A stretch of 64,000 nt of DNA from Natronobeatus ordinarius (GTDB lineage Archaea; Halobacteriota; Halobacteria; Halobacteriales; Natrialbaceae): NCBI RefSeq assembly GCF_024362485.1, contig NZ_CP101456.1, forward strand, positions 1,488,001-1,552,000, in the 5' to 3' direction. The notes under the pieces were generated by a model, which was not told the DNA's origin, did no database searches, and worked only from the letters and a program-made list of their open reading frames with translations. The position numbers were made by a program, and so were the translations under genes. Positions 39,025-44,108 of this stretch are shown here, piece by piece (position 1 is the stretch's first letter; each line of letters opens with the position of its first letter).

Positions 39025-39738
39025 TCAGGCGCCGTCGGTCGACTCGAGCTCGTCTTCCTCGTAGGCGTCCTCGTAGCGGTCCATTGCGTCCGCGTAGCCC
39101 CGTCTGGCGAGTTCGTACGTCTCCCGGAGGTCGGCGGTCGGTTCTTCGGTCGCGTCGACGCGAAGGTCGTCGTAGAAGGGGTCCAGCTCGCGGTCTTCGG
39201 TCGTGCGCACCAGCAGGGCGGCGCTTTGCACCGGCAGCTCCTCGCGTTTGTCGCCGCCTTCCTCGTAGCCGGCCTCGAGCGCGTCGATCAGCCGCTTGGC
39301 CAGCGGTTCGGCGCGGTCGCTCGCCTCGTAGCTCGCCGCGGTCGCTTCGATCACCGACTCGCCGGTTAGCAGGTTGCCCGCGACGGTGTAGTTCTCGCCC
39401 TCGAGGTGGCCGTACCAGTCGCGACACTCCTCGCCGGAGAACGTGAAGGTCCCGTCGGCGTCGACGCCGTGGAGCTGGCGGCCGGCCGCGCCGTCGTCGG
39501 CGTTGAGCAGCGCCTCGAGGGCGTCCCCGATGGCGAGCCCCTCGTCGACGTACTGGAGACCGCGTCGGCCGAGGTCGACGTTGACCAGACTTTGTGTGGC
39601 GATCGCGCCGTTCTCGCTGGCGAACGGACAGAGCGTGCCGACGCCGGCGAGGCGGGTCGTCACCGCGACGCCGAACCGGCGCTGTGGCTCGCCGTCCTCG
39701 TCCTCGTACGTCTCCCGGACGCAGATGCTGAACGTCAT
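39025..39738 (-). CDS. DUF1028 family protein (Ntn-hydrolase-like)
   Basis: 237 residues from the ATG at 39738, with an A/T-rich box about 27 nt upstream. The N-terminal MTFSICVRETYEDEDGEPQR, then FGVAVTTRLAGVGTLCPFAS and GAIATQSLVNVDLGRRG, are DUF1028 hallmarks. The family is predicted to share the Ntn-hydrolase fold with a processed N-terminal nucleophile, but no activity is firmly known. A C-terminal helical extension is acidic. It lies upstream of the first MFS gene on the same strand, 103 bp apart. Confidence 0.88.
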   Translation of the reverse strand: MTFSICVRETYEDEDGEPQRRFGVAVTTRLAGVGTLCPFASENGAIATQSLVNVDLGRRGLQYVDEGLAIGDALEALLNADDGAAGRQLHGVDADGTFTFSGEECRDWYGHLEGENYTVAGNLLTGESVIEATAASYEASDRAEPLAKRLIDALEAGYEEGGDKREELPVQSAALLVRTTEDRELDPFYDDLRVDATEEPTADLRETYELARRGYADAMDRYEDAYEEDELESTDGA

Positions 39739-39863
39739 GGCCGTCTCCAGGGAGTGGGTCGACAAAAAATCAGGCGTACCGGCAGGCGTGTGCCGAAGTC
39801 CGGACCGCCTCGAGGCAGTGCCGTCGAGGGCGGCATCGACTCGAGGTGATCCGTATCGGTCGA

Positions 39864-41657
39864 TTACCGCGTTACCAGTTCTCGAGCGCGGATTCCGGCG
39901 TGGCCACCGGCACCCACCAGGATGCCGACGGCGTACAGGGCCGTGAGCGCGACGCCGATGGAGGCGCTCTCGACAGCCGAGTCGGTTTCGGCCTGGCTGT
40001 CCGAAAGCGACGCACACAGGTCCACGATCTTCCGGGTGGTCCGAGCCGTCAGACTCTCGGGGTGTTCGGCGAGCGTGTCGGCGATGGGTGGACTGATGCG
40101 GTAGTAGAGTCCGACCAGCCCGCGGCCCATCGGCGTCGCCGCCATGGACTCATCACGGAAGCGCCGGAGCGAGTTGAGCGTGTGCCCCTCGCCCGCGGTC
40201 GCCGTGGTGATGAAACAGCCGCCGTCGTCGCTGTCGGTCGTGAACGACTGGGTGAGCCCGGTGTCGGCGTCGTCGGTGGTCTCGGCGACCGCACGGAACT
40301 CGTAGTCTACGCCTTCAGTGAGTCCGGAGAGCGTCTCACTGAACGAGCCCGTCGCGGTGAGCGTCTCGGGGGCCGTCGCGTTCGGGAAGCCGCTGCCGAC
40401 TTCGCCCCACTCGAAGGAGACCTCCGCGCTGGTCGCGTCGCCGAGGTCGTCGAGTGAGCCGTTCAGCGTCGCCGACGTCTCGCCGACGCCGGTTGCGGAG
40501 TTAGTCGAGACGGAGAGTTCGGGCTCGGGGGGGTCCCCGAGAACCGCTGCCTCGGCGTCGAGCAATCCGTAGCCCTGTTCGTTGCCGCTGAGACCGATGT
40601 CCTCGGCGGTGTTCTGGAGCTGCTGGCGCGCCTCGGTGTTGCTCATCCCGTTACCCATCAGGTGCGCGGCCGCACCGGCGACGTGTGGACACGCCATCGA
40701 CGTCCCCGAGAGCGTGTCGTAGCTGTCGTTGAGGTACGTCGAGTAGATGTTACTCCCCGGCGCAGCGATCTCGACTTCGGGGCCGCGCGAGGAGAAACTC
40801 GAGATATTGTCGTTGTCGTCGGTCGAGGAGACCGCGATCACGCTGTCGTACGCCGCCGGGTAGCCGACGTTGTCACAGCAGCCGTCGTTACCCGCCGCGG
40901 CGACGACCAGCGTCCCCTGGCTGACGGCGTACTCACAGGCGTCCTCGAGTGCCTGGACGTGGCTGGAACCGCCGAGCGAGAGTGAGGCGACGTCGATACC
41001 CTGGTCGGCGGTCCACTCGATCCCGGCCGCGACGTCACCGAAGTTGCCGCCGCCGAACGAGTCGAGCACTTTTACGGCGTATAGCTCGGAGTCGAGCGAG
41101 ACGCCGACGACGCCGACCCCGTTGTCCGGCGCGACCGCCGTTCCGGCACAGTGGGTGCCGTGTCCGTTGTCGTCGCCGTACGGTTCGGGACAGGTGGAAC
41201 AGGAGGTTCCGAAGGCGGCGCCGCCGTCGACGTCGAGACTCTCGTGGTCGACCTGGACCCCGGTGTCGATGATCGCGATCGACCCACCGGCGCCGGTCTC
41301 ACCCCCCTGGTGGAGCACGTCGCCGCCGACGCGGTCGACGCCCCACGGGACGGTCTGAAGCGCGAACGCCTCCTGGTCGTCTTCGACGTACCGGACGTTC
41401 GGATTTCGCTCGAGTCCCTCGATCGCTTCGTCGGGGAACCGCCCGACGACCGCCTTCCCGATGTCGTCGAAGTCCAGCTCGTGATCGATCTCGTCGGCCG
41501 CTCGACGGGCGAGGCCGAATGGGGTGTCGGCGGTCAGCCCGACGATCTTCCGCTCTGGTGGTCCTCGTGCGACTGCTGTACCGGTGATTCCCGTAGCCGC
41601 CACGCCCGCAGCGGTGGTGCGGAGCACGCGACGGCGAGTGATGTTGTTGTCTGACAT
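39864..41657 (-). CDS. Tat-exported halolysin-like subtilase with CFI-box C-terminal domain
   Basis: 597 residues. Tat signal TRRRVLRTTAAGVAATGITG, then an I9-type propeptide (about 36-100), an S8 protease domain with Asp131 (IIDTGV), His166 (NGHGTHC), oxyanion Asn257 and Ser320 (GTSMACPHVAG), a beta-sandwich segment (about 405-475) and, from Cys481, a CFI-box domain (CFITTATAGEGHTLNSLRRF, FRDESMAATPMGRGLVGLYY). A hydrophobic helix near 567-590 could anchor the protein in the membrane. Halolysins often end in a polycystic-kidney-type or similar domain; the CFI-box end is unusual. Eight or so Cys in the protease domain could form disulfides. No TATA box at the usual distance; see the upstream region. 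Confidence 0.93.
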   Translation of the reverse strand: MSDNNITRRRVLRTTAAGVAATGITGTAVARGPPERKIVGLTADTPFGLARRAADEIDHELDFDDIGKAVVGRFPDEAIEGLERNPNVRYVEDDQEAFALQTVPWGVDRVGGDVLHQGGETGAGGSIAIIDTGVQVDHESLDVDGGAAFGTSCSTCPEPYGDDNGHGTHCAGTAVAPDNGVGVVGVSLDSELYAVKVLDSFGGGNFGDVAAGIEWTADQGIDVASLSLGGSSHVQALEDACEYAVSQGTLVVAAAGNDGCCDNVGYPAAYDSVIAVSSTDDNDNISSFSSRGPEVEIAAPGSNIYSTYLNDSYDTLSGTSMACPHVAGAAAHLMGNGMSNTEARQQLQNTAEDIGLSGNEQGYGLLDAEAAVLGDPPEPELSVSTNSATGVGETSATLNGSLDDLGDATSAEVSFEWGEVGSGFPNATAPETLTATGSFSETLSGLTEGVDYEFRAVAETTDDADTGLTQSFTTDSDDGGCFITTATAGEGHTLNSLRRFRDESMAATPMGRGLVGLYYRISPPIADTLAEHPESLTARTTRKIVDLCASLSDSQAETDSAVESASIGVALTALYAVGILVGAGGHAGIRARELVTR

Positions 41658-42015
41658 GAAGTAGTGCGCGACGCATGGCGTCTGTGACCCCGCTTGCGCT
41701 CGACGACGACCATCGATCGCAGAGCGCCCTGAACGACGCTCGCGATCGAGTCCACGCCGCCGAGCTGACACACTGGTACGACCCCGTTCCGATGCGGTCG
41801 TTACTTGTCTGTGTGTGTTCACAGCGTGGCGTGTTCGGACGTAGCATGCGCCTGGTCAATGGTTATTACCAAAGTATATTAATATTTCCATTGTTGTTGA
41901 ACAGTCTCTTGCTGAAGACCGCTTTCGCAGACGTTCAGTCAGAAACGTCGGCAATTGATTTCGAAGCGTCGCGGGTGGCTTCAAAAAGTGTGAAACTGAC
42001 GTGCCGCAGTTCGCG
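41658..42015. other. Long intergenic region between the two subtilase genes
   Basis: 358 bp with no convincing gene. The middle (about 41850-41960) is AT-rich and contains AATATACT (reverse strand, near 41872-41880), a good TATA match. It lies about 190 nt before the subtilase ATG at 41657, so either the mRNA has a long leader or the box drives something else. The first reverse-strand ATG after it (41847) opens an out-of-frame, arginine-rich frame that is unlikely to be a protein. Confidence 0.6.
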
Positions 42016-43557
42016 TCAGTAGTCTTTCGTCTCGCTCGTCTCGTTACCGGCTTCGTCGACGACGGTGAGTCGGACGGTGTCGGGGCTGTCGCGAGTGCGC
42101 AGTTCGTGTTCGCCCGACGCACTCGAGCCGCTGACCGACGAGCTCTCTGCATCCAGGACGGTGGTGCCGTCGAGCAGTTCGGACGTCACGGACTCGAGTG
42201 CACCGTCGGCGTCGGAGACGGTCCAGTCGACGTCAGCGCGCGACCAGGGGCCCGAGCCCCGCGTGCTTAGCGAGAAGTCGTCGATCTCCGGGGCGGACTC
42301 GACGTCGTCCTCATCATCCTCTTCGTCGTCGTCCTCTTCTTCGTCATCCTCGTCGTCCTCTTCGTCGTCGCCCTCTTCCAGCTCGAGCGCGTTCGCGACG
42401 TTTAGTCGGCCGGCGCCCTGTTCGTTGTCGTCGAGGCTGATGTCGTCAGCGGCGTCTTTCAGGAGGTCCCGAATCTCGTCGGGATCGTAGCCGGCCGCGA
42501 GCAGTGTCGCGGCAGCGCCAGCGACGTGTGGGCAGGACATCGAGGTTCCCGAGAACGATGCGTAGTCATCGCGCGGAACGGTCGAGAGGACGTCGACGCC
42601 GGGTGCGGCGAGGTCGACCTCGGGACCCGTCGAGGAGAAGTCCGCCAGCTCGTCGTCCTCGTCGGTGGCCGAGACGGCGATCACATCGTCGTACGCGGCC
42701 GGATAGCCGACGCAGTCGGTGCACGGACCCGAGTTGCCCGCCGCGGCGACCATGACGACGCCCGCGTTGGTGGCGTACTCGACGGCGTCCTCGACGACCT
42801 CGGAGCCGCTATCTGCCCCGAGGCTCAGGCTCTGGACGTCGTGACCCTGGTCGGCCGACCACACGATTCCCTCGGCGATGTCGTCGAACGTGCCGCTCCC
42901 GCTGCAGTCGAGGACCTTCACCGCGTGCAGCGTCACGTCGGGCGCGACGCCGAGCACACCGACGCCGTCGTCCGCCGCACCGACGGTTCCAGCACAGTGA
43001 GTGCCGTGGTCGTTGTCGTCGTCCCACGGCTCGAGACACTCCTCGATGTCGTTGCCGCCGCCGAAGGGGCCGCCACCGCAGCCCGTGGTACAGGCGGCGT
43101 CGTCGGTCGCGTACCCCTCGCCGAGGTTCTCTGCGAGGGTCTCGTGGGCGGCGTCGATGCCCGTGTCGATGACGGCGACGCTGACGTTCGCGCCCGTTTC
43201 GCCGTTTTCGATCGCGACGTCGGCTTTGACTTTCTCGATCCCGTACGGCGTCTCCTGGCCGAGCGCGTGCATCCGGCCGTTCTGTTCGACGTAGCGGACG
43301 TTCGGGTTGTTCTGGAGTGCCTCGACCGCCTGTTCGGAGAACCGGCCGGAGATGGCGCTCCCGATCTTCCCGAAGTCGAGTTCCTTCCGTACCGATTGTG
43401 CCGCTCGCCGAACCGCACCCCGGTCGCCGCCGGGAACGATGCCGACGACGTATTCGCCCTCGTTCGCTGCAGTCGCCTTCCCCACGAGTGTCGTCCCGAC
43501 GGCACCCGCCGTTACTCCCTGTAGAACCGTTCGCCGTGAGTAATGCTCATCTCCCAT
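42016..43557 (-). CDS. Tat-exported halolysin-like subtilase with acidic linker
   Basis: 513 residues. Tat signal SRRTVLQGVTAGAVGTTLVG, I9-type propeptide (about 35-95), S8 domain with Asp131 (VIDTGI), His184 (DHGTHCAGT) and Ser339 (FSGTSMSCPHVAG). After the protease domain comes an acidic linker made almost only of Glu and Asp (about 392-418), then a roughly 95-residue beta-sandwich C-terminal domain (DDFSLSTRGSGPWSRADVDW) that should help surface or substrate binding. It is secreted and folded before export. It is a tandem paralogue of the next gene but lacks the CFI-box domain. TTAAGTTATC about 35 nt before the ATG is the likely promoter. Confidence 0.94.
   Translation of the reverse strand: MGDEHYSRRTVLQGVTAGAVGTTLVGKATAANEGEYVVGIVPGGDRGAVRRAAQSVRKELDFGKIGSAISGRFSEQAVEALQNNPNVRYVEQNGRMHALGQETPYGIEKVKADVAIENGETGANVSVAVIDTGIDAAHETLAENLGEGYATDDAACTTGCGGGPFGGGNDIEECLEPWDDDNDHGTHCAGTVGAADDGVGVLGVAPDVTLHAVKVLDCSGSGTFDDIAEGIVWSADQGHDVQSLSLGADSGSEVVEDAVEYATNAGVVMVAAAGNSGPCTDCVGYPAAYDDVIAVSATDEDDELADFSSTGPEVDLAAPGVDVLSTVPRDDYASFSGTSMSCPHVAGAAATLLAAGYDPDEIRDLLKDAADDISLDDNEQGAGRLNVANALELEEGDDEEDDEDDEEEDDDEEDDEDDVESAPEIDDFSLSTRGSGPWSRADVDWTVSDADGALESVTSELLDGTTVLDAESSSVSGSSASGEHELRTRDSPDTVRLTVVDEAGNETSETKDY
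42304..42383. repeat. Simple GAN-type repeat coding the acidic linker
   Basis: Irregular run of TCN/TTC triplets on the plus strand, coding Glu and Asp on the minus strand. It looks like a low-complexity expansion rather than a regulatory repeat and may vary in length between strains. Confidence 0.6.
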
Positions 43558-43751
43558 GGTATATGTGTTGCATGTACACCCACAGGGAGTGATAACTTAA
43601 AACATCCGTATGGTCTCCTCGAGAAACTGTTCGGAAATATAGGAGTAGCGGAATGAACGGGCGAAACTAATGTCACTGAAGTCATCTATTGGGCGCGGTG
43701 AAACTCCGTCTGACGTAAGAACTATACTGACAGCGAAGGTGTCTGTCGACT

Positions 43752-44108
43752 ATGGGACTCATGAGCAAAATTCTCGGCGGCGGACAGTCCCGAACGACCG
43801 AGGATTACGTTGAACTCGACCTCGACGACGTAGCTGACCACGGGAGACAGGCGACGATGCAGGTCCACGTCGCAGAGATCGATGGACAGCCGTCCGCGAT
43901 CGACATCAAAGACGCCGTCTACGACGGCGACATCGTCATCGCCGACATCACCCGCCTGCGCACGAAAGACAGCACGGCCGAACACATCGTCGACGAACTC
44001 CGGCAGGTCGCTCGAGAGGTCGACGGCGACATCGTTCAGAAAGGCGACGACCAGATCATCATCACGCCCACGGGCGTGCGGATCGGCCGGGAGAAGCTCG
44101 GCCGGTGA
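43752..44108 (+). CDS. sepF: Cell-division membrane anchor SepF
   Basis: 118 residues. A short amphipathic N-terminus (MGLMSKILGGGQSR) should bind the membrane, and the C-terminal domain (VHVAEIDGQPSAIDIKDAVY, GDIVIADITRL, QKGDDQIIITPTGVRIGRE) has the SepF beta-sheet pattern. In haloarchaea SepF is known as the anchor for FtsZ2 in the division ring. ACTATACTG about 25 nt before the ATG is a good TATA element. Divergent from subtilase 2. An alternative start at 43761 would remove three residues of the membrane-targeting helix. Confidence 0.93.
   Translation: MGLMSKILGGGQSRTTEDYVELDLDDVADHGRQATMQVHVAEIDGQPSAIDIKDAVYDGDIVIADITRLRTKDSTAEHIVDELRQVAREVDGDIVQKGDDQIIITPTGVRIGREKLGR

Follow-up and report, generated by a model that had tools for sequence, protein, structure and literature searches.

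A CFI-box tail on a Tat-type haloarchaeal subtilase as a candidate exchangeable membrane-anchor module

The window analyzed here, a stretch of 64,000 nucleotides from Natronobeatus ordinarius, carries two subtilase genes in tandem on the minus strand, flanked by two syntenic markers: sepF (43752–44108, plus strand; PF04472, E 1.8e-15) and a DUF1028 gene (39025–39738, minus strand, start codon taken from the sequence; PF06267, E 4.8e-59). As read from the sequence, the gene at 39864–41657 starts with an ATG at 41657 and encodes a product of 597 aa, P0001. The protein begins with a Tat-type signal peptide by sequence (residues 1–31, RRRVLR ... AVA; 41565–41657). Pfam TAT_signal matched this start weakly, under its cut-off (E 0.044), and an RR-x(1,2)-hydrophobic motif lies close to the start in all 15 of the tailed subtilases described below. 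Next comes a probable I9-like propeptide at about residues 38–98 (41364–41546), whose limits we infer and in which residues 68–96 gave a weak Inhibitor_I9 match (E 0.093, under the Pfam cut-off). The Peptidase_S8 catalytic domain occupies residues 123–364 (40566–41291; PF00082, E 3e-54) and contains the Asp, His and Ser motifs of S8 subtilases, aligned with those of the tandem neighbor; from the subtilisin motifs, Asp131, His166, Asn257 and Ser320 presumably hold the corresponding roles. The closest solved chains found by phmmer were subtilisins, with 4gi3 as the best (E 1.8e-66, residues 101–371). The catalytic domain is followed by a linker domain at about residues 377–475 (40233–40529), Fn3-like by eye and free of Cys, for which Pfam and NCBIfam returned no match. 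In some other tailed subtilases (e.g., L032–L035 and L038), a short Gly/Cys-containing linker replaces the Fn3-like one.

The C-terminal part of P0001 matched NCBIfam model NF041770 (CFI_box_CTERM) at residues 481–534 (40056–40217), with GlyGly ahead, at 57.7 bits and E 7.7e-16 (cut-off 40 bits). The CFI putative sorting motif, NF041763, reached 17.5 bits against a cut-off of 15.9, and the two matches together span residues 475–534; in the sister tail L033 the latter model stayed under its cut-off (12.1 bits). The initial annotation had read a CFI-box C-terminal pattern from Cys481 onward and named the absence of a match to the CFI-box model as the outcome that would overturn this reading. The sequence CFITTATAGEG indeed starts at residue 481 and the model search gave a match over cut-off, so that P0001, judged by its sequence, is a Tat-type S8 subtilase ending in a correctly named CFI-box. 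Downstream lie a second cysteine, residue 548 (40014–40016), conserved in the tail alignment, and a membrane helix predicted by Kyte-Doolittle and AlphaFold2 at residues 565–583 (39909–39965; Kyte-Doolittle mean 2.0), preceded by an acidic segment and followed by Arg. A hydrophobic helix after the motif had also been claimed; it is there, but not directly after the motif, since 83 residues separate Cys481 from its start. The tandem neighbor (42016–43557, minus strand; PF00082, E 3.1e-58) has a Tat-type start and lacks a hydrophobic helix at its end (last-60 Kyte-Doolittle maximum 0.32), and in agreement with the earlier statement that it lacks the tail, no CFI match was found in its product at E ≤ 1. 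In the whole genome P0001 was the sole CFI-box over cut-off, and three further places scored at most 12.5 bits.

Alignment of long tails from 15 tailed subtilases (14 genomes) and 19 standalone proteins (19 genomes) delimited a haloarchaeal module of ~117 aa, composed of the CFI-box, the second Cys, one hydrophobic helix and an Arg-containing end. Compared with the NF041770 and NF041763 models, the module extends about 60 residues further, to include the second Cys, the helix and the Arg end. Ten of the subtilase tails could be aligned with no internal gap and share 61 invariant columns, including Cys481 and Cys548. All 34 long tails align across the CFI-box and the second Cys and, except for the standalone L124, which departs from the family's frame at the helix, also across the helix; in eleven standalone rows one column of the pre-helix segment is missing. 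The CFI Cys is present in all 34 tails, with GlyGly before it in 14 of the 15 subtilases, and the second Cys in 15/15 subtilase and 16/19 standalone tails. An AlphaFold2 model of the tail, built from nine sequences, consists of helices, of which the last is long (92–127 of the tail); its mean pLDDT of 64.6 denotes modest confidence.

For the tail the initial annotation had suggested a possible role in anchoring or processing the protease at the cell surface. Surface anchoring is the best reading of a comparison of the last 60 residues, in which helices were called by Kyte-Doolittle alone: a hydrophobic stretch with a mean of 1.59 to 2.43 was present in 15/15 tailed subtilases and in 0/17 tail-less subtilases of the same stretches with visible ends, where the maximum was 0.63. 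The tail-less comparison comprised 18 rows, of which 17 were scored, as L132_9610 runs off its contig and its end is unseen. Processing found no positive support: no processing gene common to tailed loci was seen, and the gap between Cys481 and the helix amounts to 83 residues.

We surveyed CFI-boxes at three taxonomic levels. Of the 125 genomes of the family, 18 contain a CFI-box scoring over cut-off; at E ≤ 0.001 there are 24 matches in 19 genomes. Sorted by reading, these are ten subtilases, from 10/125 genomes, 12 other short-tailed proteins without a helix, and two partial matches. The latter (L022 and L023; 42.0 and 22.6 bits) lack the motif part and are perhaps gene remnants. Three of the short helix-less CFI-box proteins lie within 22 kb on contig 22 of genome G103 (31.8–53.6 kb; L039 and L040). 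In the order, 40/392 genomes match the CFI-box, and outside the family all 24 matches carry the long tail, on five subtilases (4 genomes) and 19 standalone proteins. At the level of the phylum, where up to 11 candidates per genome were scored, at least 25 of 392 genomes match the long-tail profile at E ≤ 1e-6. Among the candidates scored, at least six genomes match it over the whole length, all of them within the order; in the rest the match covers the CFI-box part only, and matches outside the order end by position 78. At least 11 CFI-box matches were counted in one genome, G497, which belongs to a different family within the phylum; some of them fall on reading frames exceeding 1000 residues. 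A search of genome contigs with P0001 as the sole query gave one distant match.

In all ten tailed genomes of the family the tailed subtilase was found at sepF, either adjoining it or with a tail-less subtilase in between. It lies between sepF and the DUF1028 gene in seven of them and on the opposite side of sepF in three (L032, L033, and L035). Forty further sepF stretches, among which L089 comes from a tailed genome and some end at contig ends, included nine with a tail-less subtilase only and 30 without a subtilase within the stretch. Outside the family, a subtilase array with two tailed members fills the sepF–DUF1028 interval of L112, while the tailed subtilases of L133 and L134 are located elsewhere. 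Comparison of the gene clusters common to most of the ten tailed loci disclosed no gene special to them: sepF, the DUF1028 gene, a small DUF gene and an RNase R-like gene are shared by most and occur at tail-less loci too. A dedicated processing enzyme next door was for this reason set aside.

Two trees and the pairwise identities gave discordant histories for the tail and the protease that carries it. Mean identity is 74.4% in the tail vs. 65.4% in the catalytic domain, and in 90 of 105 pairs the tail has the higher value. In the tail tree (33 rows, L124 excluded) the subtilase tails form one clade (100/99). In the catalytic tree of 33 subtilases, with L132_9610 taken as tail-less and with L133 and the tail-less L059 as long branches, the tailed label needs four changes, at least three of them forced by starred branches, and a single clade of tailed subtilases was rejected (AU p 2.7e-76). 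In windowed comparison, L134 is closer to a tail-less subtilase at about residues 101–400, whereas from about residue 401 onward a tailed one is closer; from about 551 the tail-less relative offers no counterpart, and neither of the two is a good match for the first 50 residues of L134. The pattern recurs less clearly in L133, where one window in six contradicts it. On these comparisons both proteins look like mosaics. We regard exchange of the tail as a cassette between haloarchaeal proteases as the best account of the tree conflict, of which tail loss in some lineages could explain a part.

The 19 standalone proteins end in a homologous module and have no recognizable export signal. An RR-x-x-hydrophobic match occurs before the Cys in eight of them; by eye, none of the eight leads into a hydrophobic stretch. 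Nor is any segment within the 130 residues preceding the Cys strongly hydrophobic (maximum 0.94, in an overlong reading frame). At 16 of the 19 loci one member of a long membrane-protein family is encoded nearby; the single member tested matched NCBIfam Nramp_1 with 269.7 bits (cut-off 50) and gave no Pfam match. These standalone genes (L113–L131, from five families) lie beside a gene cluster, mostly end to end with it; the cluster holds an Nramp-type gene at 16/19 loci as well as unannotated small genes, one of which, of ~180 aa, is found nearby at 16/19 loci. The genome of P0001 lacks the standalone protein, as the query found only P0001 there, and the ~180-aa gene, which four of 125 family genomes have.

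Subtilase and standalone tails differ in the segment before the helix. Over 18 columns its net charge is -5 to -1 in 15/15 subtilases and +1 to +6 in 19/19 standalone proteins, without overlap, and the contrast holds in each of nine subtilase and nine standalone genera. The CFI-box part differs less (mean +1.1 vs. +2.8, respectively). The positive-inside rule predicts opposite topologies for such a contrast; therefore, the acidic and the basic tails are predicted to lie in the membrane in opposite orientations. As each class sits on one side of one branch of the tail tree, the contrast is to be counted as one event, not as 34.

CFI-boxes also occur apart from a membrane helix. In the 12 other CFI-box proteins of the family no hydrophobic helix was found (maximum mean 1.04), though nine have a Tat-like start by eye; thus, membrane anchoring is not a property of the CFI-box as such. 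Although these proteins look exported, a basic charge (mean net +3.4) precedes the best window at their ends, and basic residues alone are consequently no proof of a cytoplasmic place. More widely, the CFI-box or a relative of it was detected at eight viral-contig loci (a second viral scan gave seven contigs, all among these eight), in one of 50,697 phage records and in 33 of 72,556 plasmid records. Pfam, run on eight such proteins, placed HNH_3, GYF_2 and cold-shock domains over cut-off in three and TPR repeats in three (one over cut-off); two of the eight viral CFI-box proteins (L135 and L137) look exported by eye. The fusion to an HNH endonuclease domain lies on a viral contig (L142:1698–2252), and a Burkholderia plasmid carries the cold-shock fusion (L109:1156–1737). 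The placement of CFI-box domains on exported proteins, stated in the initial annotation, is not supported, and the domain is not confined to such proteins in the light of these HNH_3, GYF_2 and cold-shock proteins and of the 19 signal-less haloarchaeal ones, which likewise disfavor a sortase-type signal.

Taken together, we think it probable that the tail works as a portable cassette for C-terminal membrane anchoring, which tethers a Tat-exported protease, and that a homologous module anchors signal-less proteins at the cytoplasmic face. P0001 would be exported through Tat, and helix 565–583 would remain embedded in the membrane, its Arg end facing the cell interior. The helical CFI-box, with its cysteines in some putative role, would then form a juxtamembrane domain at the outer face. 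Recombination between haloarchaeal subtilases would have swapped the cassette, which comprises the CFI-box, the second Cys and the helix and in some cases also the Fn3-like linker, and in signal-less proteins its homolog would anchor from the cytoplasmic side. A more far-reaching proposal, which we put forward tentatively, is that the CFI-helix tail constitutes one membrane module with two topologies, with the CFI-box facing outward in Tat-exported subtilases and inward in the signal-less proteins near the Nramp-type gene, the inversion residing mainly in the short pre-helix segment. As a mobile cassette it may more than once have turned released proteases into tethered ones, and the CFI-box might be a membrane-interface domain suited to either side instead of a sortase signal.

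The most specific alternative takes the tail for a processed sorting signal, in which Cys481 would be lipidated and the rest cut off to leave a lipid-anchored protease. The NCBI name (putative sorting motif), the Cys in all 34 long tails with its preceding GlyGly in most subtilases, and the order of motif, hydrophobic helix and Arg end would all suit such a signal. The same order of motif, hydrophobic helix and basic end is described for the archaeosortase A/PGF-CTERM system on exported haloarchaeal proteins, and MYXO-CTERM, too, combines an invariant Cys with a helix and an Arg-rich end; the myxosortase model has lipid attachment and cleavage at the Cys motif, with the helix after it (PMC11980579). 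In MYXO-CTERM, however, the Cys motif is next to the helix, whereas 83 residues lie between in P0001 and homologous tails occur on proteins without an export signal. The P0001 tail contains no PGF and matched no PGF-CTERM model of NCBIfam at E ≤ 1. Signals of the PGF-CTERM type are several times shorter than the conserved domain of P0001, in which the 61 columns invariant among ten tails are scattered along almost the entire length. The same Cys is found in signal-less, HNH, GYF_2 and cold-shock proteins, the genome offers one CFI target and also contains a strong archaeosortase-type match (TIGR04125, 327 bits), and the genes common to most of the ten tailed loci recur at tail-less ones. A tripartite signal of the sortase type is therefore not our first choice, given the length of the conserved region, the distance from Cys to helix and the signal-less homologs, and we judge cleavage with lipidation unlikely. 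Hedgehog- or intein-like cleavage at Gly-Cys-Phe was dropped as a candidate, as the residue before the Cys varies widely in the sequences read and the domain is short and predicted to be helical.

It is rather unlikely, too, that the CFI-box acts as a compartment-independent protein- or membrane-interface domain (e.g., for dimer formation or cofactor binding) and that the helix alone, and incidentally, provides the anchor. Such a role would fit the occurrence of the box without a helix on exported-looking proteins and on cytoplasmic domain types, and the invariance of its Cys in the alignments made. On the other hand, neither a binding partner nor a ligand site could be named: Foldseek with the tail model found no fold relative, giving a single meaningless match at E 8.9, and a PDB profile search yielded nothing below E 0.22. 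That the tail is a passive or decaying extension with no role of its own, as its sporadic presence on subtilases of 10/125 family genomes might suggest, seems very improbable for a segment whose conservation exceeds that of the catalytic domain and which has apparently moved as one piece.

P0001 can be compared with known haloarchaeal enzymes. The halolysins SptA, Nep, R4 and 172P are likewise haloarchaeal S8 proteases with a C-terminal extension containing two Cys, which in SptA stabilizes the enzyme and aids substrate binding (PMC3158780), and both Nep and SptA are listed among Tat substrates (PMC9263693). SptA is released into the medium, and its extension was modeled as a disulfide-containing beta jelly roll (PMC3158780), while the P0001 tail is predicted to be helical with a membrane helix. 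With its Tat-type start and C-terminal hydrophobic helix with an Arg end, P0001 has the predicted pattern of a C-terminally anchored Tat substrate. Such substrates of Haloferax volcanii are reportedly the subject, by title, of a 2007 paper by Gimenez, and by that title alone they would share the fate proposed here for P0001. In the literature searched, no paper text mentioned "CFI-box", the names of the models or the motif. NCBIfam already covers the domain; its long haloarchaeal form, the cassette-like exchange and the two predicted topologies did not turn up in the searches made. Homologous tails with opposite predicted topology, together with apparent natural swaps, make the role of the CFI-box testable.

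If the anchor reading is true, haloarchaea toggle their halolysin-like proteases between a released and a tethered form through exchange of a single gene end. Given the tailed and tail-less ends, tandem pairs such as that in the window would yield one tethered and one released enzyme, and the cell would display P0001 alongside the freed product of the neighboring gene. The sepF–DUF1028 interval (39025–44108 in the window; L112:808–17291) appears as a nursery of subtilase genes, holding none, one, two or an entire array.
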